DNA from: a virus
Strand: one strand, 5' to 3'
IMG/VR virus record: IMGVR_UViG_3300031951_009873
Span: 1-64,000 of that record
DNA: 64,000 nt
Below are positions 4,215-64,000 of the stretch, piece by piece (positions within the stretch are counted from its first letter, which is position 1; every line of letters begins with the position of its first letter). A program made the position numbers and the translations under genes. The notes under the pieces were generated by a model, which made no database searches, was not told where the DNA came from, and saw nothing but the letters and a program-made list of their open reading frames with translations.

Positions 4215-4278
4215 GATAATAAGTAAAAAGGTTGTAATACAATAGAAACTTACCTTTGGATAATGAAGAAGGGGAAAT

Positions 4279-7200
4279 ATGGCAAATGAATTTATAGCCA
4301 GAAAGGGACTGGTTGTCCCTACTGGTAGTATAATAGTTTCATCTGGTTCGGTTACCGCAAATGATTTCTTCGGAACTGCAAGTCGAGCAGTTACCGCATC
4401 ATTTGCGTTAAACGCAGCAGGTTCAGGATTCCCCTTCAGTGGTAGTGCAGTCATCACCGGGTCACTTAATGTAACCCAGGCGGTGACTGCATCGTTTTTT
4501 AAGGGTGACGGGTCACAAATTACAGGATTAAATACTTTAAGTAGTTCAGTAAATATTGATACACATACTTTCCAAGGTGATGGCTCTACCTCAAACTTTG
4601 TATTATCTCAAAGTTATGAACTGTCCTCATTATTTGTTTCTGTCGATGGATTATCGCAAACAAGTATCACAGACTATAGTATATCAACAAACATTCTTTC
4701 ATTTGTAGAAGCACCGCCTTCACAATCAAGTATATTAGTTAGAGCCTTAATAAATGTAACCCAAGGTGCTACGGGTTCATTTAGTGGTTCATTTCAAGGT
4801 GTAATTACAAGTGCAAGTTATGCAGAAACCGCTAGTTTTGCACTAACCCCATCAGGAACTTCTGGTAGTTCGGGAACGTCGGGTACATCGGGTAGTTCTG
4901 GAAGTACAGGCACCTCGGGTTCATCAGGTAGCACAGGAACTTCGGGTAGTTCCGGTTCAACAGGAACGTCTGGTTCATCTGGATCAAGTGGTATAGATGG
5001 TACTTCAGGAACATCAGGTTCATCAGGAACCTCTGGTAGTTCTGGTTCTACGGGAACCTCAGGTAGCTCGGGAAGTACAGGAACGTCTGGTAGTAGTGGT
5101 AGCACGGGTACCTCTGGTAGCTCGGGTTCAACCGGTACATCGGGTAGTTCAGGCACATCTGGTACTTCTGGTTCAAGTGGGACTGCTGGTTCTTCTGGAA
5201 CAAGTGGTACGCTTACATTAACGGGTACCACAGATAATGGATTGATTACTCTCAATGGTTCAGCTCCAAATGCAACCGTAGAAAGTAATCTTACCTTTGA
5301 TGGTAATTCGTTAGTAGTTACAGGAGCAATCACAGCAAGTACTATACGAGTTAATGGTACTGCATCATTACGATATTTAGAAACACAATTTGTAACCGCT
5401 TCAGTTATCTATGAAAGTGGTTCTACTAAGTTTGGTGACAGCTTTGATGATGTACATCAACGCACTGGTTCACTAGAAATTACTGGCTCACTTGTAATAA
5501 ACGGAACTTCGTATACCGCAGCAACTTCTGGAACATCAGGTACTGCAGGAAGCGCGGGCACATCAGGAAGTAGTGGTACTTCTGGAACATCTGGTTCATC
5601 AGGCAGTACCGGAACCTCAGGCAGTTCAGGAACATCAGGCAGTTCTGGTTCTTCAGGAACAACAGGAACTAGTGGAAGTAGTGGAACTTCGGGAGAAAAT
5701 GGAAGTAGCGGAACCTCTGGTAGTTCGGGCACAACAGGAACTAGTGGTAGTGCAGGAACTTCAGGTTCTTCCGGTAGTTCGGGTACTTCAGGAAGCGCCG
5801 GTACATCAGGTACCGCTGGTAGTAGCGGTAGTACGGGAACCTCTGGAAGCGCAGGAACAGCTGGTAGTAGTGGAACAAGTGGTTCTTCTGGGTCAACGGG
5901 CACCTCAGGGTCAAGCGGTTCAACTGGAACTTCTGGTAGTAGCGGCTCAACAGGAACATCCGGTAGTAGCGGTAGTACAGGAACTTCAGGTTCATCCGGA
6001 TCAACAGGTTCATCTGGAACCAGTGGAAGTTCGGGAAGTACTGGTACAAGCGGATCAGCAGGAACAAGTGGTACTACCGGTAGCTCAGGAACATCAGGTA
6101 CATTAACGCTCACAGGCACCACTGATAATGGATTAATTACATTAAATGGAACCGCACCAAACGCAACCGTAGAAAGCAACTTAACATTTGACGGCAGTAC
6201 CTTAACAGTGGTTGGTAATGAAGTTATATCCGGTTCCACTACAATTACAGGTAACCTCACAGTTCTTGGGTCATCATCAATTGGATATCTTACCCAAAGT
6301 CAATTAAATATCGGTACCAATTTAATCACAGTTAATGCACTCAATCCTGAATTCCGTTTTGGAGGATTAGCTGTTATTGATTCAGGATCATCACCAAAAG
6401 TTAGTGGTTCGTTATTATTTGATTCCATTAATGACCAATGGATATTCATTCATCAACAAGTAGCAGGGGCAGGTACTACATCATCCGTATTATTAATGGG
6501 CCCGCAAACCTTTAATGATGTTGGGAACGAAACGAATTTAAGTACAAATAGAATTCCAAAGAGTAATAACTCAGAACATCTCTCAGACTCCATCATTACG
6601 GATAATGGGTCGCAAATAACTGTTAGTGGGTCGGTATCTGCATCCTCATTTACAAGTTCTATTTCAAACGGAGTTGGCTTCTTTGGCACCGCATCTTATG
6701 CATTAACTCCTGCGGGAACTGCGGGTAGTAGTGGAACATCTGGTAGCTCTGGCACATCAGGTTCATCAGGTAGTACAGGAACCTCTGGTAGCAGTGGTAG
6801 TGCGGGAACCTCTGGCTCGTCTGGAAGTACGGGAACATCAGGAAGCTCAGGAACAACAGGTACTTCTGGAAGTTCGGGTACATCTGGAGCAGGGGGAAGT
6901 TCTGGAACCAGTGGAACAGCTGGTAGTTCGGGAACTACTGGAACTAGTGGCAGCGCAGGAACTTCTGGTTCGGCAGGAACTAGTGGTAGCGCAGGTACAT
7001 CTGGAACCGCAGGTAGTTCTGGTACTTCTGGAGCAAATGGTTCATCTGGCACTTCTGGCTCATCAGGAAGTAGTGGAACTACGGGAACCAGCGGTAGTTC
7101 GGGTACTTCTGGAGCAAACGGTAGTTCCGGTACCTCTGGTAGTTCAGGAACATCAGGCAGTTCTGGTACGTCGGGCTCATCAGGAAGTAGTGGAACTACG

Positions 7201-35122: not shown

Positions 35123-35836
35123 ATGAAAGTACTATATTCCAATGGAGATTCCGTTATCTGGGGAGCAGAATTAGAAAACAAAACAGAGGAAAGATTTTCA
35201 AAGTTATTAGCAGATAAGTTGAAAATGGTTGATTGCAACAATGCTTCTGCTGGGGTGTCAAACGACTATATCTACCGACAAACGATGAGAGATGTCTCTC
35301 ATTGGTTAGACACTAAACAAATATGGAGTGAAGAATCTGATTGGGTCAGCGCAGATGAAATCCTTATAATTATTGGGTGGACCTCCCCTACCAGATTTGA
35401 ATGGTGGAACGGACAACAATACATTCAAGAAAGATTGTGGACAGGATATGATAAGTGGGGCAATCCAGACTTACATAGAACTACAGAAGATGAGTTCGTA
35501 TTGCATCAAACAGAACTTATTCCATCTTATATACGAACGCTAAACCATATTAATGCTTTACATGCATTTCTTACAGTAAATACAATTCCTCATTATTTTT
35601 TCAATGTGTTCTATGAATATGAAGACTTATACGAACCAACGGATAAAATAGACACTTTTGGTAGAAAAAATTACCAATTATCGACAAATTCTTTGTTAAA
35701 ACTCACTCCAAACTCGTTTAGAAGCAAGACGATGTATAATTATATAAAGGAGAACGGGGGTGGATTTTTACCTAGAAATCACCCCGATAAACTGTCCCAC
35801 AAGTTATGGGCGGAGTTTTTATTTAAGGAGGTTTGA
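35123..35836 (+). CDS. SGNH-hydrolase-like protein 4
   Basis: The 237-residue product (ATG 35123; the earlier in-frame GTG would overlap the previous gene more) starts VLYSNGDSVIWGAELEN with a GDS nucleophile block, and has ASAGVSNDYIYRQTM and ILIIIGWTSPTRFEWW, the third block with the island's characteristic I-x-W-[ST] strand. RNHPDKLSHKLWAEFLF at the end carries the HPD-type catalytic His. It overlaps the carbamoyltransferase start (TGATG), so the two may be translated as a pair; the TSS is probably far upstream. Confidence 0.74.
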   Translation: MKVLYSNGDSVIWGAELENKTEERFSKLLADKLKMVDCNNASAGVSNDYIYRQTMRDVSHWLDTKQIWSEESDWVSADEILIIIGWTSPTRFEWWNGQQYIQERLWTGYDKWGNPDLHRTTEDEFVLHQTELIPSYIRTLNHINALHAFLTVNTIPHYFFNVFYEYEDLYEPTDKIDTFGRKNYQLSTNSLLKLTPNSFRSKTMYNYIKENGGGFLPRNHPDKLSHKLWAEFLFKEV

Positions 35837-37467
35837 TGTACATAATTGGAATATCGTGTTTCTATCACGATTCGTCTATTTGTTTGTTCAAGGATGGTGA
35901 ATTGGTTTTTGCGTGTGAAGAAGAAAGGTTTACTGGCAAAAAACACGATTCGTCGTTCCCCCACAACGGATTGCGTTACATATTAGACACGTACAAGATA
36001 CGTTTAGATGAAATAGAAAAGTTTTGCTTCTACGAAACCCCAGCACTAAAGCTGGGCAGAATAGTCAAAAACTACATCCGACATCCTATTTCGTCGTTTT
36101 CATTTACTAAACAATCCTTGATAAACTGGTATAAGAATGCCCAAACTCTACGAAAAGAGGTTGGGAATAATGTCTATTACCAGCCACATCATCATTCCCA
36201 TCTATATTATTCGTACTATACATCTATGTTCAAAGATGCAGTAGTTGTATCGGTCGATGGTGTGGGGGAAACAGATACCGCAACCGTAGCGATTGTCAAA
36301 GACGGTAAATTTACATTCAAACCACTAATGAAATACCCACAGTCATTGGGACTATTTTACTCTGCGATGACTTCGTTCTTAGGGTTCAAACCCAACAACG
36401 GCGAATATAAGTTGATGGGGCTAGCTGGGTTTGGTAATCCTCACATATACTACGACAGAGTTAGTAGTTTAAGTATGAAACACTTTGTATGGGACAAGTC
36501 TAATGAAGTAATGTTCAATGAGAACTTATCAAAGGAATTAGGAATCCCAAATAGACTCCCAGAAGAAGAAATATTACAAGTCCATAAAGATATTGCCGCA
36601 GCAACTCAACTGGTATACGAACATAATTTGTTCTCGTTGTTAGACCAAGTAGCCAAAGAAACCGATATCAGAAACTTGTGCCTCGGTGGTGGATGTGCAT
36701 ACAACGGGGTGGCTAACGGTAAAATAAAGAACATCACTCCGTTTACAGAATTATGGATACCACCCGCTCCATCTGATGCTGGGTCGTCTGTTGGTGCCGT
36801 ACTAGGATATTTACGACACCAAAATGGATTTGAACATCGGGTAAAAGAAACCCCGTTCCTAGGACCAGAATATTCTGACGAAGATATTATCAACCAACTA
36901 CCAGGAGTAAAGCTAAAGAAAGTCAGTGATAGTAAATTATACGAACTGGTTTCCCAAGAATTACAGAAGGGGAAAGTAGTTGGGTGGCTCAGAGGTAAGT
37001 CTGAATTCGGTGCAAGAGCATTAGGGCATCGGTCAATCCTAGCAAACCCATTCATCGATGGAACCAGAGATAAGGTAAACAGTATCATTAAGAAGAGAGA
37101 AGGGTTTCGTCCGTTTGCACCTATGGTCCGCTATGATATTCAATCTGAATATTTTCACGAAGAGGACTATGTTCCGTATATGAACCAAGTGGTTAATGTC
37201 AAGGAAGAACATCGAAACTTATTGAAAGAAGTGTCAAATGTCGATGGTACGGCTAGAATACAGAGTGTGAAACGGGCTGAGAACCCTACCATCCATAAGT
37301 TACTTACGAAGTTCTCAGAAGTATCGGGTAATCCACCCATCCTATTGAATACATCATTTAATGTTCGGGGTCAAACGATGGTCTTGACACCACGCATGGC
37401 ATATGATACATTTATAAGTACCGATATTGGCGTACTAGTATTAAATAATTTTATTATAATAAAGTGA
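35836..37467 (+). CDS. O-carbamoyltransferase (NodU/TobZ family)
   Basis: The 543-residue product starts at ATG 35836 behind a perfect AAGGAGG site. It has IIGISCFYHDSSICLF and VFACEEERFTGKKHD, the N-terminal Kae1-like signature, PHHHSHLYY (metal-binding His cluster near residue 119), VVVSVDGVGETDTATVA, LGGGCAYNGVANGKI, and KSEFGARALGHRSILANP near residue 390, the YrdC-like part. This is a full-length member of the family that makes carbamoyl-adenylate from carbamoyl phosphate and ATP and moves the carbamoyl group to a hydroxyl, often on a sugar. It suits a glycan-decoration role. Confidence 0.92.
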   Translation: MYIIGISCFYHDSSICLFKDGELVFACEEERFTGKKHDSSFPHNGLRYILDTYKIRLDEIEKFCFYETPALKLGRIVKNYIRHPISSFSFTKQSLINWYKNAQTLRKEVGNNVYYQPHHHSHLYYSYYTSMFKDAVVVSVDGVGETDTATVAIVKDGKFTFKPLMKYPQSLGLFYSAMTSFLGFKPNNGEYKLMGLAGFGNPHIYYDRVSSLSMKHFVWDKSNEVMFNENLSKELGIPNRLPEEEILQVHKDIAAATQLVYEHNLFSLLDQVAKETDIRNLCLGGGCAYNGVANGKIKNITPFTELWIPPAPSDAGSSVGAVLGYLRHQNGFEHRVKETPFLGPEYSDEDIINQLPGVKLKKVSDSKLYELVSQELQKGKVVGWLRGKSEFGARALGHRSILANPFIDGTRDKVNSIIKKREGFRPFAPMVRYDIQSEYFHEEDYVPYMNQVVNVKEEHRNLLKEVSNVDGTARIQSVKRAENPTIHKLLTKFSEVSGNPPILLNTSFNVRGQTMVLTPRMAYDTFISTDIGVLVLNNFIIIK

Positions 37468-52985: not shown

Positions 52986-53249
52986 ATGCGTTTTTATCCA
53001 TTTGGGTCCAGTTCGCTAAACCAGATATATAATACTACACTTGCGACCACTGCCTCGTTGTCAACTTATGCAGCATCTGCGAGTTTCGCAACACGCATAC
53101 TCAGTGCATCGTTTGCAATTTCTGGTTCACGTGGAATTGCTGGTACAGACGGTAGTTGTAGTTTCACCCCAGGACTTACAGGCGACATAGGAATTCAAGG
53201 AATTGGTGGTTCGGCTGGTGGGGTATCCTTAGCAGTAGGAGTACCATAA
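52986..53249 (+). CDS. Small fibre-like protein, FYPFG family copy 1
   Basis: The 87-residue product starts MRFYPFGSSSLNQIYNTTLA, has an Ala/Ser stretch (ASASFATRILSASFAIS) like the fibre shafts, and ends in a Gly-rich collagen-like segment (GIAGTDGSCSFTPGLTGDIG). Copies 2 and 3 follow and share the plan (aromatic-Pro-containing start, ASAS stretch, Gly-rich segment). It is likely a small virion component or fibre accessory, but no annotated family is known to me. Confidence 0.6.
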   Translation: MRFYPFGSSSLNQIYNTTLATTASLSTYAASASFATRILSASFAISGSRGIAGTDGSCSFTPGLTGDIGIQGIGGSAGGVSLAVGVP

Positions 53250-53250
53250 C

Positions 53251-53805
53251 ATGCAATTTTATCCGAATACTATCTCCGTAAATGAAGTAGCATTTGCTGT
53301 AAGTGCTAGTATCGCTAGATCCGGCTCACTTATTGAAAAGTTTGCTGCTGTACCTATAACCGCAAGTTTGGCATTAAATATAAGAGGGTCAACTGGAACT
53401 GCGGGCACTAACGCAGGACCAATATCTGGGCCAAAGGGGGCACAAGGACAACGAGGTGTAACTGGTCTGCGTGGAGATAGCGTATATCTTCTCTCCAGTT
53501 CATGGCATGATGAAAGTAAAGGTGGGGCTTCTTGTTCATCAGCACCAGCAAATTGTTATCCGTATGATTTCTGGCCATCCTATAGAGTAGGAGGAGTCAG
53601 ATTCTGCGACTACAGTGGTGTTTATATTACGTATTATAGTACAGATCTTACTTTGGGAGCAGGAAGTCCAATGTTCTATAATGAGGTGTGTACGAATCCT
53701 GCGCTTGACCAGAAACTTGGTGCATATCAGATTGAACAAACAGTATACAACACAGATGCAAACGGCGACTTAGTAATAGTAGGTTCATGCGAGCAATCAC
53801 TATAA
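53251..53805 (+). CDS. Small fibre-like protein, FYPFG family copy 2
   Basis: The 184-residue product starts MQFYPNTISVNEVAFAVSAS, followed by SASIARSGSLIEKFAAVPIT and a collagen-like run (GSTGTAGTNAGPISGPKGAQ and GQRGVTGLRGD) that, unlike the Gly-Ser-Thr fibres, contains Pro and charged residues as in true G-x-y repeats. The C-terminal part has several Cys (GGASCSSAPANCYPYDFWPS, RFCDYSG, NEVCTNP). It begins one base after copy 1. It may form a small trimer with a Cys-bridged head. Confidence 0.6.
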   Translation: MQFYPNTISVNEVAFAVSASIARSGSLIEKFAAVPITASLALNIRGSTGTAGTNAGPISGPKGAQGQRGVTGLRGDSVYLLSSSWHDESKGGASCSSAPANCYPYDFWPSYRVGGVRFCDYSGVYITYYSTDLTLGAGSPMFYNEVCTNPALDQKLGAYQIEQTVYNTDANGDLVIVGSCEQSL

Positions 53806-53817
53806 AATAATTTAAAT

Positions 53818-54318
53818 ATGTCATACTATTTTCCATTCGGTGGTAGTCAAGCAACTACAACACAGAACATAAGTCATTCATTATCAGCAGCAACCGCTAG
53901 TGCACCAACGTCAAACAGTACCACAGCAATTACTGCATCTTGGGCAGCAACAACTAAATTTACACCAGAATCGGGGTTTGCTGGGTTAAATGTAACTTTG
54001 GAAGGATGTCAAACCGCTTCAGCTGCAAATCCGTCATTACTGGTATCTGGTGCTACTGGAAATCAAGGACCATCGGGGTCAAACGGAACTAATATACTAA
54101 CGTGTCCAGATGGTACTGTTCGGTGTATGGCGTTAGAACCTTCATTATCCGCACAGTTTTTTATTGGTGGTATACGAGGTGCGAACTATAATGTCCCATC
54201 GGGGTCACAGTATAGTATTGTCTGTATGCAAATTCCAACCACCTGTAGCGCAGCACAAGCATTAGCTGGTTGTCCAGATTCCTTGTATATACCTACTCCA
54301 CGACCAAGCATCCCTTGA
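53818..54318 (+). CDS. Small fibre-like protein, FYPFG family copy 3
   Basis: The 166-residue product starts MSYYFPFGGSQATTTQNISH, with AATASAPTSNSTTAITASWA, a short Gly-rich linker (GATGNQGPSGSNGTN) and a Cys-bearing end (CPDGTVRCMALEP, VCMQIPTTCSAAQALAGCPD). The order of parts matches copies 1 and 2. Its stop codon overlaps the -35 box of the next promoter, so it ends the structural operon. Function as a virion component is inferred. Confidence 0.6.
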   Translation: MSYYFPFGGSQATTTQNISHSLSAATASAPTSNSTTAITASWAATTKFTPESGFAGLNVTLEGCQTASAANPSLLVSGATGNQGPSGSNGTNILTCPDGTVRCMALEPSLSAQFFIGGIRGANYNVPSGSQYSIVCMQIPTTCSAAQALAGCPDSLYIPTPRPSIP

Positions 54319-56504: not shown

Positions 56505-57257
56505 ATGGCAGAATACAATTTCCCGACAGAAACGATAGACCTTCCAAGTGGTGGGAAGTTCTATTCTGAGGGGAGTCCGTTACGAAGTGGAAAAGTCGAT
56601 GTCAAGTATATGACCGCTAAGGAAGAAGATATCTTGACCTCGACCAATTTGATTCAAAAGGGTGTGGTCATTGACAAATTGATGGAAAGTTTGATTGTCA
56701 CACCAGGCGTCAAACCAGATGATTTATTGATTGGGGATTTAAATGCAGTAATGGTTGCCGCTCGTATTTTAGCATACGGGAAGGAGTATCCAATTCAGTT
56801 GGTCTGTGGTACCTGCGTAACCAAGGTTGACCATAACGTTGACTTATCGAAGTTGGAAACCATTACCCCAGATATACCAGCAGAAAACAGTGAGTATCAA
56901 GTCACTTTACCAACTGGTGTTGTAATTACATTTAAGTTATTGACTCGCGGTGATGAAAAGGATATTCAAGCAGAAGTTGAAGGAATGAAGAAGTTTAACA
57001 AGTCAATTGAAGGAGATTCCACTACCCGATTGAAGTATATGATTACTTCGGTTAATGGAAACAGTGACCGTAAAGTAGTTCGAGAATTTGTTGATGCAAT
57101 GATTATTCGTGATGTACGAGCATTTCGTGAACACTATAAGAAGGTTTCTCCAGATGTCAACTTTGATTTAGATATACAATGTTCTAACTGCGACGGTACA
57201 ATTAAAGCGAGGATGCCCTTTGGGGCAAACTTTTTTTGGCCTGACTTCGGAACATAA
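56505..57257 (+). CDS. gp26-like baseplate/tail assembly protein
   Basis: The 250-residue product has IDLPSGGKFYSEGSPLRSGK, MTAKEEDILTSTNLIQKGVV and ILAYGKEYPIQLVCGTCVTK, the pattern of T4 gp26-type baseplate proteins (Pfam T4_baseplate). It is slightly longer than T4 gp26 (208 residues). Two CxxC pairs (VCGTC, QCSNCDG) could bind zinc. It comes just before a small overlapping frame and the tape measure candidate, the place where long-tailed phages keep tail assembly chaperones, so a chaperone-type role is worth testing. The gene ends in GANFFWPDFGT and runs through a T7 tract. Confidence 0.82.
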   Translation: MAEYNFPTETIDLPSGGKFYSEGSPLRSGKVDVKYMTAKEEDILTSTNLIQKGVVIDKLMESLIVTPGVKPDDLLIGDLNAVMVAARILAYGKEYPIQLVCGTCVTKVDHNVDLSKLETITPDIPAENSEYQVTLPTGVVITFKLLTRGDEKDIQAEVEGMKKFNKSIEGDSTTRLKYMITSVNGNSDRKVVREFVDAMIIRDVRAFREHYKKVSPDVNFDLDIQCSNCDGTIKARMPFGANFFWPDFGT

Positions 57258-57444: not shown

Positions 57445-59151
57445 ATGGAAGAAGATTTTGAACAAGGTAGTTCTGCTATACAAAAATTAACAGACAGTAT
57501 TCTTGCACTGATGAACGCAAATAAGGAAGCTGAACAAGCTGCATTAGACCGTGCCAAAGAAGATAAAGAAGCCTCAGAAAGAAAAAAGAAAGAAAAAGAA
57601 GTTGATGATAAGTCTAAAGCTACTAAAAAAGAGTTAATTGAAGCAACTAAACGATTGGGATCAGAGTTTCTAAAAATCGGTGAAGCTGGTATTAAGTTTG
57701 CATCCACAATAGGAACCAGCGCAACCCGTGGTATAGAATTAGAATTCCGAAACAGAGCAGCGGTTGTCGCCCAAATATTAAAGTTGGATGCAGACCGAGC
57801 AGTATCTCTTGCACAACAACAAGCAGCTCAACAAGCACTGACCGATACCTTTATCAGTACCCGTGAAGGATTTCAACTTAGTGCAGACGGTACTAAAGCA
57901 TTCGCTGCAAATCTTAAGGGTGGGTTCAAATCAGAATTCCAACTTACCAATGAATCTCTTCGTGCCTTAGTTACCACGGGAATGGCAACGGAAGCACAAT
58001 TTGAAAACTTCCGTAAAGCAAGTGGTCGAGCAAGTCTATCCTCTGGTCAATTCGCCAATATTGTTAACAAGAATACATTATCATTCTTATTATATGGACC
58101 TAAGTTCGCAAAAGCAGCTACCGATGCAGAACGCTTAGGAATTAGTTTAGCAGGAGTTCAAGCCGCTCAAGAAGGATTGGTCACCAATCTTGATGGTACG
58201 ATTGATACCGTTGCACAACTTAATCAGCTTGGAGCACAAGTAGATTTTGGTACATTAGTCAGAGTTGCTGAACAAGAAGGACCAGATGCGTTGATGGCAT
58301 ATGCTAGAGCAACCATTCCAGCAAATCTCCTACAAAGTACCAGTACTCGTGCGCTCTTCAAACAATTAGGTATTTCCGCTGAAGATTTCTTAAAAGCTGG
58401 AGGTCAACAAAAGAGTGCAGCAGAATCTATTGAAGAACAAATGACAGAAGCAGCAAAGAAAACTAATAACTTTGGTGCAACACTAGTAGCGATTGGTACT
58501 AGAGCCTTTAGTCTATTGACTACCACATTTGGAGGAGTTGCTATTGCTGGATTCGCAGCAGCTAAAGCACTGTTGGCAGTGGCTCGCTCTGGTGGATTAA
58601 GTTCACTTGGTAGGTCTATGGGTTTCGTTTCTCCTATGGGTGGACTAGGAAGAGTTGGAGCTATGTATAGAGCTACTGGGATGTTGGGCACCTTAGGTGC
58701 AGCCGGTGTTGGTATAGGTGGTGGAGCAATGCTAGGAAATGCTTTGGGGGGAACCACAACAGGTAGTACTATTGGTTCATTAATCGGTACAGGTCTTGGT
58801 GCATTCTTTGGTCCAGCAGGTATGATGGTTGGTGGTGCATTAGGTGGAGCAGTAGGAGGATATTTAACTAAAGCAAACGACATGTTCTCCGCTGGGTATG
58901 GTAAACGAATGTTGGTCACCCCAACCGGCGCATTTGCAATGAATAACGCAGATGATATTATCGCCGGTACTAATCTTTTCCCGAAGGGATCACTAAACGC
59001 TGGTTCCAATAACTCTGATTTGGTTCTCAAGGTTGATAGTCTTATTACCGCATTATCGAACGCAACTACGACAATTAATGTTGGTGGTAGTACACAAACG
59101 GTTCCTCGTATGCAATTGGTTGGTGTGTACTCTCGTAACGAAGTGAGATAA
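57445..59151 (+). CDS. Tape measure-like tail protein (gp29-like)
   Basis: A 568-residue product. The N-terminus is charged and helical (EQAALDRAKEDKEASERKKK), then long helices, and at about residues 355-475 a hydrophobic Gly-Ala-rich region (GAAGVGIGGGAMLGNALGG, then FFGPAGMMVGGALGGAVGGY) typical of tape measure proteins. The end (PTGAFAMNNADDIIAGTNLF) is the kind of short motif seen at the C-terminal part of tape measure proteins. Its length is like T4 gp29 (590). The position after the gp26-like and small overlapping frames fits. Tail length would be set by this protein. Confidence 0.72.
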   Translation: MEEDFEQGSSAIQKLTDSILALMNANKEAEQAALDRAKEDKEASERKKKEKEVDDKSKATKKELIEATKRLGSEFLKIGEAGIKFASTIGTSATRGIELEFRNRAAVVAQILKLDADRAVSLAQQQAAQQALTDTFISTREGFQLSADGTKAFAANLKGGFKSEFQLTNESLRALVTTGMATEAQFENFRKASGRASLSSGQFANIVNKNTLSFLLYGPKFAKAATDAERLGISLAGVQAAQEGLVTNLDGTIDTVAQLNQLGAQVDFGTLVRVAEQEGPDALMAYARATIPANLLQSTSTRALFKQLGISAEDFLKAGGQQKSAAESIEEQMTEAAKKTNNFGATLVAIGTRAFSLLTTTFGGVAIAGFAAAKALLAVARSGGLSSLGRSMGFVSPMGGLGRVGAMYRATGMLGTLGAAGVGIGGGAMLGNALGGTTTGSTIGSLIGTGLGAFFGPAGMMVGGALGGAVGGYLTKANDMFSAGYGKRMLVTPTGAFAMNNADDIIAGTNLFPKGSLNAGSNNSDLVLKVDSLITALSNATTTINVGGSTQTVPRMQLVGVYSRNEVR

Positions 59152-60960: not shown

Positions 60961-61218
60961 ATGGAACGATATACTACACCATTAGAAACAGATACTACTA
61001 AAAAGATTCCATACTATAAGACGGTGTTACCAACCTCAATTCCGTCTGAAGATATTCCATTCTATTATGTCGTTCAAGACGGTGATAGATTGGATACTTT
61101 ATCTTATAAGTTTTACAACACCACAGAAAATTGGTGGATGTTGGCAAAGGCTAATAACTTAGCAAACGGTAGTATGGCAGTACCTATTGGTACCAGACTT
61201 TTTATTCCAAATATCTAA
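60961..61218 (+). CDS. LysM-like small baseplate protein (gp53-like)
   Basis: The 85-residue product starts MERYTTPLETDTTKKIPYYK and carries a LysM-type end: GDRLDTLSYKFYNTTENWWM followed by LAKANNLANGSMAVPIGTRL and FIPNI. This is the layout of the small LysM-like module found in phage tail proteins such as T4 gp53 and phage 'protein X' types. It is 12 bases after the gp48/gp54-like gene and one base before the hub gene. It may bind peptidoglycan or act as a structural spacer. Confidence 0.72.
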   Translation: MERYTTPLETDTTKKIPYYKTVLPTSIPSEDIPFYYVVQDGDRLDTLSYKFYNTTENWWMLAKANNLANGSMAVPIGTRLFIPNI

Positions 61219-61219
61219 T

Positions 61220-64000
61220 ATGGCACAAGTTAATGATGCACCGTGGAGTGCTGCGTTTATCGTTTGGGTGGTAAATGAAGCAGCAAGAAAAGAAGGTGTA
61301 ACCGGACTTACATTCCCAACTGGACCAAACTTTGTTGCTCACGTTGAATACGCTAATGCAATTCGTCGTGGAGGATTTCCATGGAAAGCCCTCAAACCAA
61401 CAAACTTTGGTGTACCTATTAAATTACAACCTGGCGACATCGTAGTAATCAATCGTGCGAACAACAATTTAACATTTGATGGGTGGGATAGAACTACTGG
61501 ATGGGGCGGGTTTAGTCATGGAGATGTTGTAATAGAAGATAACGACGGTCCAGGTTTTACAATAATTGGTGGTAACTTAAGCAATAGAGTACGGTCTGAC
61601 ACTAAATACGGACTAGGAAAAGCATTCGTTGTACTGCGGCCAAATAATATAGCACACGGTAATATTATACGAGATGTTGCGAAAGCAGAATTAAAACTTT
61701 GGGAAGATAACAAATGGATAAGTGAAAACCAAGCAGGCGCTCGTGAACGTGTAGCATTATATTGGAACACTTCCGGATTACCATACATCCCATCTTCTGC
61801 GTTTACTAACCCAGGAGGAGTAACCCCACGACAAGCACCAGAGTCACCAGCCGCTATCTCACCATTTATTGAATCACTTGAATCATTTCATCCAAATATT
61901 CAATACGAACTAACACGGCGCAGAGTATCGGCAGAAACGGCGAATACATATATGCCGTTTGTCAAACTAACATCGTTGTCAAGAGTATTGCCCGACAATT
62001 TACCAGACGGACAAACTTCGGCATACTGCCCTTCACTTGGTATACATGGTCAAGATAATATATCTTTCGATGATATTTACCTACCAAAAAGTAATAAAAG
62101 TATTATAGGATACGCAAGAGCTGGTGCTAATGGGGAAACTACCGTACCCGTGGTTGTGTCTGATTCAACAAGAGATGCAGCAAATATTCCTATACCTGGA
62201 ATTACTCAATTCACTGTTGAGCGCAGTACTGCGGGTCCAATGGGAGTACGTGGTGGATTGGTAAAAGCTGATTTAAAAATAGTTGCATATTCTATTGGAC
62301 AAGTAGATACACTACTTAGATATTATTTACGCCCTGCTACTAGATTAGTTCTTGAAGTAGGTAGAATGTCGGCTAATCAAAAAGAAAAACAAATAAAACA
62401 GTTTGACTGGAATTTACCAGAATCATTCATTAGTGATTACTTCAGTAAATTTATTAAAAGTCAGCGTCTACAAAACGCCTTTATCAAAGAATATATTTAC
62501 AACAATAATGGTAATTATGAAGCCTTTATTACTTATGTAGTGAAATTTAATCTTAAGTATAATAAAAACAATACTTTTGAAATAGACTTAACATTACACT
62601 CGGTTCAACAATTTGAAGTAACAACAAAACACACCGCGGTACAATCTAGTTGCCCAAGTCCAACGAAGGCATGCGATGTAATGGACATTCAAGAGTATTT
62701 TAATGGTGCATATGATTGGAAAAACAATTCGTTTAGTAAACTGATGTCACGATATCAAAATGATATAGATTGGGGTGCTCAAATTGTACCAATAAAAAAT
62801 AAAGATACTAATGAAGTTGGTGCGCAAAGTACTCAGGCGGGAACTAGAGAAAATGAGTATTATGTATCGTGGACATTTTTTGTAGAAAAAATATTAAACG
62901 ATAGAGAATACGGTATTGCTGCTATGTTGGGAGATAGTACATCTGTGGGAGCACTATCAGACTTAGCATTATTACGACCTGTAGCAAATCCAACTGGATC
63001 GTTTGAATCTGGACTAATTTCAAATCAATGTGGATACCATCCAAATTTAAGATCGGTAAACCCAGGCGTAATGATTATTTACAATCCAGAAGCACAAATA
63101 AGATATGAAAAATCAAAAGATAAAGGCATATTTGAAAGTGTTAAAAATGCGGCCGCATCCGGCTCAAAAGAAGTAAGCGATGCGTTAAAAGTTAGTTCCT
63201 TAGCACAACAAATCAGTGGGTCATCTGTCCCATTTACCAACACACTAAATAAAGTAAATACTGTAGCGGGTGCAAGTTCATTAACAAATGGTGTGTGGTT
63301 AAATACCCAAGCAATTAAGCAAGCATTTACATCCACCGATACAATTTCATCCGCAATAAGTTCATTGTTAAGTATGATGAATTCGGCAACAGAAGGTTAC
63401 TGGAATCTTCAATTATACTCTACTGATGTGAAGAACCCAGGCCTCCATGTGATTGATATGGGACTGTCGAAAGAACCAAAATTACTTTCCAAGCCTTCAC
63501 TTGGTATTGATAGAGAAGAAGCAGAAACAAGTAATATTCTGAATAGTATTACTGGTATAACTCCCGCTCGTTATCGCGGTGACAAAGAAGATGAACCTAA
63601 ATACATCTACATGTTTAATCGAGGTACAAAATTATTTGACGATGGGGAACTTGGTAGTGAATTAATTGACTTAAATGTAGAATTTAATTTACCACAAGTA
63701 ATCGCAGTACAAGCTATTGCTAACATTGGTGGCCCTGCACAAAAACCACTGTTGTCATCTATTAATGTAAAAGAATTACAAGAAATTAGTCTTATCAAAG
63801 GATTATATACATCATGTGGTGATTCGGCAGACGATGCTAGCTGCGAAAGTGACGAAATAAGAAAGCTCCGTGCACAAATAAGCGAAGCTGAAAGTGCCAA
63901 TCAACGTGCACAGGGGCTTCGAGCCCCTAGTATATTCGCGGGAGATGTTAGTACTCAACTTGCGTTAGCAATAAATCGTGATATAGCATCAACAAATCTT
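61220..64000 (+). CDS. Giant hub-like protein with N-terminal DUF2272-like domain (partial)
   Basis: An open frame of 927 codons runs from ATG 61220 to the window edge, where it stays open. Residues 1-145 resemble DUF2272 (APWSAAFIVWVVNEAARKEG, then IKLQPGDIVVINRAN and FSHGDVVIEDNDGPGFTIIG), a predicted papain-like/NlpC-like domain with His in FSHGD. A baseplate-hub-like region with tube-fold features follows (RRRVSAETANTYMPFVKLTS, then YARAGANGETTVPVVVSDST), with a C-terminal coiled-coil-like stretch (ISEAESANQRAQGLR) at the edge. It may join cell-wall degrading and hub roles like T4 gp5/gp27 in one chain; this is inference. Confidence 0.68.
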   Translation, partial: MAQVNDAPWSAAFIVWVVNEAARKEGVTGLTFPTGPNFVAHVEYANAIRRGGFPWKALKPTNFGVPIKLQPGDIVVINRANNNLTFDGWDRTTGWGGFSHGDVVIEDNDGPGFTIIGGNLSNRVRSDTKYGLGKAFVVLRPNNIAHGNIIRDVAKAELKLWEDNKWISENQAGARERVALYWNTSGLPYIPSSAFTNPGGVTPRQAPESPAAISPFIESLESFHPNIQYELTRRRVSAETANTYMPFVKLTSLSRVLPDNLPDGQTSAYCPSLGIHGQDNISFDDIYLPKSNKSIIGYARAGANGETTVPVVVSDSTRDAANIPIPGITQFTVERSTAGPMGVRGGLVKADLKIVAYSIGQVDTLLRYYLRPATRLVLEVGRMSANQKEKQIKQFDWNLPESFISDYFSKFIKSQRLQNAFIKEYIYNNNGNYEAFITYVVKFNLKYNKNNTFEIDLTLHSVQQFEVTTKHTAVQSSCPSPTKACDVMDIQEYFNGAYDWKNNSFSKLMSRYQNDIDWGAQIVPIKNKDTNEVGAQSTQAGTRENEYYVSWTFFVEKILNDREYGIAAMLGDSTSVGALSDLALLRPVANPTGSFESGLISNQCGYHPNLRSVNPGVMIIYNPEAQIRYEKSKDKGIFESVKNAAASGSKEVSDALKVSSLAQQISGSSVPFTNTLNKVNTVAGASSLTNGVWLNTQAIKQAFTSTDTISSAISSLLSMMNSATEGYWNLQLYSTDVKNPGLHVIDMGLSKEPKLLSKPSLGIDREEAETSNILNSITGITPARYRGDKEDEPKYIYMFNRGTKLFDDGELGSELIDLNVEFNLPQVIAVQAIANIGGPAQKPLLSSINVKELQEISLIKGLYTSCGDSADDASCESDEIRKLRAQISEAESANQRAQGLRAPSIFAGDVSTQLALAINRDIASTNL

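Follow-up and report, generated by a model that had tools for sequence, protein, structure and literature searches.

Does the tail hub of a phage carry its own cell-wall hydrolase, and if so, which active site would such an enzyme use? This question is raised by a hub-like gene at the end of the stretch of DNA analysed here (the window, 64,000 nucleotides), which is the 1-64000 section of an 80,474-base virus record. An earlier examination of the letters alone (the sequence-only reading) had placed a DUF2272-like, papain-like wall hydrolase at the start of a hub-like protein, directly behind a LysM-like gene, and had proposed a possible new tail-tip lysin. The ORF runs past the window end; completed from the window's own record, as had been recommended there, it encodes 1130 amino acids. 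Its ATG at 61220 directly follows the stop codon of the upstream gene ending at 61218, whose product is indeed LysM / Phage_tail_X-like (E about 3e-4) and also matches baseplate PHROGs (E 5e-8). The features of this region are listed in Table 1.

Table 1. Positions of the hub-like gene, its predicted parts and the neighbouring tail genes in the window.
Feature	Coordinates	Strand	Basis
T4_baseplate family protein (PF12322; PHROG baseplate hub)	56505..57257	+	E 1.2e-15 and 5.7e-19
Tape-measure-like protein	57445..59151	+	phrog_167, E 4e-6
LysM / Phage_tail_X-like baseplate protein, just upstream of the hub gene	60961..61218	+	Pfam and PHROG matches
Hub-like protein	61220..64000 in the window; gene end at record position 64612 (L002:3713)	+	ATG start
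DUF2272 core, CHAP/papain-like (residues 4-143)	61229..61648	+	Pfam, AlphaFold, Foldseek
Ser10, predicted nucleophile (Cys place of CHAP)	61247..61249	+	hhalign to SKML-39 gp5 CHAP; 27/27 members
His41 of HxxY, invariant	61340..61342	+	alignments
His100, predicted catalytic His (HxDxV)	61517..61519	+	invariant in alignment A5; 27/27; aligned with CHAP His
Asn119 of GGN, predicted third catalytic residue	61574..61576	+	invariant in alignment A5; 27/27; aligned with CHAP GGN
Displaced N-terminal helical unit of DUF2272 (residues 144-190; helices 144-163, 174-184)	61649..61789	+	HMM, AlphaFold
Hub body, from about residue 205, beginning shortly before ..ESLESFHPNIQYELTRRR	61832..64000	+	alignment; conserved in all slot variants

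Collagen-like tail fibres are also encoded within the window, and three adjoining small proteins at 52986-54318, judged by eye from their translations, resemble one another at their starts (M.FYPF-like) and contain short G-x-y runs of collagen-like type. A Nol-like carbamoyltransferase (35833-37467; PHROG 1601, E 2e-108) is present as an auxiliary gene amid a long series of metabolism-like genes. Outside the window, the record breaks off early in a protein (L002:19155-19574) that opens with a signal-peptide-like segment and has a CarboxypepD_reg domain (E 3e-19); its gene comes immediately after the phage DNA polymerase gene. Such a front is usual for TonB-dependent receptors, and the piece could stem from the host or from a chimeric assembly.

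The family assignment of the N-terminal domain was borne out by Pfam: residues 4-125 match DUF2272 (PF10030) at profile positions 43-159 of 191 with an E-value of 2.5e-9 and a score of 37.7 bits against a gathering cut-off of 27, and the match is therefore not due to chance. DUF2272 occurs in bacteria, archaea and phages. An AlphaFold model of the domain, for which the input alignment contained the bacterial sequences as core only together with the phage domains, had a pLDDT of 86 and a pTM of 0.85 and was CHAP-like, with the helical unit included; its core elements are the alpha1 helix (residues 10-24) and five strands (55-58, 74-78, 99-107, 113-117 and 135-141). In a Foldseek comparison with the PDB, this model matched two CHAP lysins best, 4olk, the CHAP domain of LysGH15 (prob 1.00), and 5udm (prob 0.96), although with E-values of no better than 4e-3 and 1e-2, respectively. 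In BFVD, the top match was a DUF2272 protein from Caulobacter phage Ccr34, with lysin-type, CHAP and tail-lysozyme proteins ranking next. Searches of the PDB by sequence found neither a DUF2272 nor a hub relative. The confident model and a profile alignment to a phage CHAP domain (hhalign E 7.9e-8) together identify the fold as CHAP-like, and the domain is under purifying selection (dN 0.25 and dS 1.43 for the pair L017/L024). BLAST with DUF2272 additionally matched gp5 proteins of Dickeya and Salmonella phages and Streptomyces lysins; the three of these proteins that were checked have Cys-bearing CHAP domains and were rejected as DUF2272 members.

The predicted active site departs from that of the enzymes of this fold. 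At the N-terminus of the core helix, where CHAP and NlpC/P60 enzymes have their catalytic Cys, the window domain has Ser10, and the number of Cys in residues 1-214 is zero, as had been suspected when no catalytic Cys was apparent. In papain folds, the exchange of Cys for Ser often kills or weakens the activity. When the DUF2272 profile was aligned to the gp5 CHAP of Salmonella phage SKML-39 (hhalign prob 94.5), Ser10 stood opposite the Cys of SWCAAF, His100 opposite the His and Asn119 opposite the Asn of GGN. The conservation of Ser in 80 genome loci was biased by the WSAAFI search pattern with which they were found, and it was re-measured on sequences collected without motif bias, namely Pfam-based matches from three phyla together with two phage proteins of canonical order. 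All 27 of these family sequences that cover the columns have the Ser, the His and the Asn. Judging from these alignments, we infer that Ser10, His100 and Asn119 would form a catalytic triad in which Ser10 acts as the nucleophile. The sequence-only reading had taken a missing Cys/His pair as grounds against a papain-like enzyme. The pair is literally missing, but through a replacement by Ser across the whole family and not through decay; thus the papain-like domain stands as a fold, not as a Cys/His enzyme. That DUF2272 throughout conserves a Ser where the papain-like fold otherwise has Cys was published in 2023, and the function of the family was there described as speculative (PMC10318531).

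The order of the parts within the domain is also unusual. In the 80 bacterial and archaeal loci, a helical unit (A..E..W, then E..RV..YW..G) precedes the core, which shows the motif series WSAAFIS .. HxxY .. GD .. R .. HxDxV .. GGN .. FVV. In every phage-hub copy, by contrast, the core lies at the protein start and the helical unit comes only after its last strand; we therefore term this form the permuted DUF2272 variant. Accordingly, the window domain does have the unit, but C-terminal to the core instead of N-terminal to it. An HMM built from 27 compact bacterial N-segments detected the unit in all seven phage domains (13.5-27.3 bits), and in the window it scored 24.0 bits at residues 150-184, compared with 10.7 for the best of 3500 shuffles. 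An HMM that drew on all 80 bacterial N-segments lacked the sharpness to reveal the permutation in each of the phages: it gave 12.8 bits for the window versus 11.3 for the best shuffle and left L006 and L007 inside the shuffle range. In the AlphaFold model, the two C-terminal helices are packed with a pLDDT above 90. Because the order of the papain-like core is unchanged, the permutation concerns the DUF2272 domain and differs from the helix permutation that is known from other NlpC/P60 relatives (PMC10318531).

This circular permutation was seen only in these phage hubs, and the seven permuted copies form one side of a branch in the core tree (95/85). The permutation probably arose once in phages and was then passed between hubs by recombination. 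Six-frame Pfam matches of L007 and L008 starting at profile position 9 were considered as canonical order and rejected, since their translation runs across the TAA stop of the LysM gene upstream; in the protein itself the DUF2272 match starts at profile position 45. Canonical-order DUF2272 is found in two other phage proteins. One of them (L041:872-5629, 1585 aa) has a hub-like front by eye, the canonical DUF2272 and an endolysin-like domain (PHROG 90, E 1e-12), and its C-terminal part is SGNH-like by eye. The other (L048:3068-4456, 462 aa) ends in DUF2272. Its front part had been considered as a gp5-like OB domain by eye, a candidate that was dropped, with PHROGs and Pfam giving no match there; the next gene has spike-like repeats and no profile match.

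What, then, is known of the place in which this domain sits? Scanning viral contigs with the hub-body alignment gave 30 hub loci, several of them near-copies of each other. From about 'SLESFHPNIQYELTRRR' onward their ORFs have the hub in common, and the sequence in front of this point is entirely different among them. As assigned by motif, this N-terminal slot holds DUF2272 in 12 loci, an M23-type domain in 14, Amidase_2 in one, a PHROG 3000-type domain in two and another unassigned domain in one; a Pfam check found M23 in the six proteins examined (E 1e-15 to 7e-24) and Amidase_2 in L012 (E 3e-18). The upstream LysM-like gene is 91-98% identical in sister phages with M23 in the slot. Compared with one of these (L022), the window shows 98% identity in this gene and 63% in the hub, whereas the slot scores below shuffles. 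The hub-body tree, in which several branches are long, requires eight changes among the five slot types. Counting well-supported branches alone, DUF2272 must have changed at least 3 times and M23 at least 4 times, and the window hub groups with M23-bearing hubs (98/98). Given these changes and the dissimilarity of the slot sequences, the slot has been repeatedly exchanged. DUF2272 thus takes the same position as M23 and Amidase_2, two well-known families of peptidoglycan hydrolases, and since sister phages hold these enzymes in the same slot, DUF2272 probably cuts cell walls too.

The three remaining slot domains have no enzyme assignment and were not counted as hydrolases. In L010 and L011 the domain, from base 4260, is PHROG 3000 (tested on L010), which is shared with crAss-like and Bacteroides phages, and its motif GINIHR..SAGCQVF is reminiscent of L,D-transpeptidase-type sites. 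Provided that the logic of the slot holds, it would be another uncharacterised wall enzyme. The domain of L029, from base 4281, has no Pfam, PHROG or PDB match, and by eye its motif EQGYAT..NFNFGG resembles those of glucosaminidases or transglycosylases.

The chain on which the slot sits was examined in the same way. The sequence of the hub body had no match in PHROG, Pfam or PDB searches, tblastn of the whole protein against INPHARED found no relatives, and hhalign detected no sequence similarity to T4 gp27 (E 0.38). A structural model of the hub, of low confidence (pLDDT 54), placed T4 gp27 and VgrG chains near the top of its Foldseek matches (prob 0.77-0.94, E about 0.1), with gp27 itself at prob 0.77-0.87. 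The hub-like identity is moderately supported by the neighbouring genes and these weak fold matches, and we picture the hub as a putative trimeric, gp27-like assembly. It is unlikely that the protein is instead some other component of the baseplate or fibre base that carries an enzyme at its N-terminus. Such a reading would fit a body with neither a profile match nor a confident model, but the gene follows T4_baseplate, tape-measure-like and LysM genes in the operon, and most of the top fold matches with prob above 0.7 are gp27 and VgrG chains. At the other end of the chain from the enzyme slot, in the far C-terminal part, the hubs of L006, L025 and L031 bear a match to the peptidoglycan-binding domain PG_binding_1, that of L031 lying just under the curated cut-off; binding is therefore handled on the hub chain in these phages.

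Taking the hub-like identity as the preferred one, we consider it probable that the N-terminal domain is a virion-borne tail-tip peptidoglycan hydrolase on the hub chain. Upon tail contraction, the hub-borne DUF2272 domain would be carried into the envelope, where it would open the cell-wall mesh locally so that the tube could pass; peptidoglycan as its substrate is suggested by analogy with the enzymes of the sister slots. A lysin role is also supported by the L041 protein, in which DUF2272 lies beside the endolysin-like domain, and by L048, in which it ends a 462-aa protein. No measured activity for any DUF2272 member was found. It is rather improbable that the domain only binds peptidoglycan without cutting it, as a dead CHAP relative that docks the tail tip while another protein cuts. 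The Ser in place of Cys in a Cys-free domain is what such a binder might show, DUF1175 of the same clan has been described as an inactive peptidoglycan binder (PMC10318531), and the PG_binding_1 matches at the far hub end lend this reading some weight; however, the triad His and Asn are invariant beside Ser in bacteria, archaea and phages, although a pure binder needs neither, and the slot alternates with active enzyme families. Least probable of all is that the domain is active as a hydrolase or transferase but has a different target, for example as an esterase or amidase of polysaccharides or proteins in the envelope: a Ser-His-Asn site could serve acyl transfer or ester cleavage, and the published proposals for DUF2272, called speculative, span from peptidase-like to cell-wall amidase (PMC10318531), but M23 and Amidase_2, with which it alternates in the slot, are peptidoglycan enzymes, and among its phage relatives with a Cys the closest are CHAP tail lysozymes and endolysins.

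Returning to the tail-tip hydrolase, the window protein was compared with known systems. Bacterial and archaeal DUF2272 proteins share with it the core WSAAFI..HxxY..GD..R..HxDxV..GGN, the Ser in the Cys place and the helical unit (A..E..W / RV..YW), but the bacterial proteins carry this unit before the core and the window after it. They also have a covarying Cys pair (both Cys in 67/80) that is absent from the window. In the bacterial loci (L049-L128) these two Cys, in GDLxC and HCD, occur singly in only four, as expected for a disulfide, and the phage-hub copies are without both. The Ackermannviridae gp5 (Salmonella phage SKML-39 gp098, annotated as baseplate hub subunit and tail lysozyme) resembles the window domain in its CHAP-like core and in its aligned nucleophile, His and GGN, and both domains are on a baseplate hub chain, by prediction in the case of the window. 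Unlike the window domain, the SKML-39 CHAP has a catalytic Cys and the canonical order, and it follows Gp5_OB in a spike protein instead of standing at the N-terminus of a hub body.

In T4, gp27/gp5 has the same tail place and presumed role, with a weak fold resemblance of the hub body, but hub and lysozyme are separate chains, the enzyme has another fold, and the hub has no sequence similarity to that of the window. In tail-associated lysins (Tal), for example those of enterococcal phages, modular M23, CHAP or amidase wall enzymes are carried on tail-tip proteins; in the enterococcal proteins the PF06605 endopeptidase comes first and the M23 and amidase domains towards the C-terminus, while the window has an N-terminal slot whose contents include DUF2272 (PMC10194240). 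The sequence-only claim of a tail-tip lysin on a hub chain is thus well supported by the DUF2272 match, the CHAP-like model and M23 or Amidase_2 in the sister slots, but not its novelty as such, because the tail-associated lysins of other phages already combine hub and lysin on one chain (PMC10194240) and because Ackermannviridae have T4 gp5-type chains with CHAP. The exchangeable slot, the permutation and the replacement of Cys by Ser go beyond that claim.

The serine of DUF2272 was flagged as a puzzle in the 2023 survey (PMC10318531). Beyond that survey, the present analysis contributes the setting in a tail hub, the exchange of enzymes, the clade of permuted phage copies and a direct alignment to the CHAP tail lysozymes of phages. 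The wider proposition is that DUF2272 proteins may be natural serine-nucleophile, CHAP-like peptidoglycan hydrolases, with a Ser-His-Asn site that needs no Cys, and that phages would use the permuted form as an exchangeable tail-tip lysin; we regard its chances as evenly balanced. The exchange of enzymes within one hub slot makes the function of DUF2272 a sharp and testable prediction, and the Cys-free phage DUF2272 offers a clean protein for asking whether a papain-like fold works with serine. The slot itself provides matched natural chimeras, in which one hub is combined with different enzymes.
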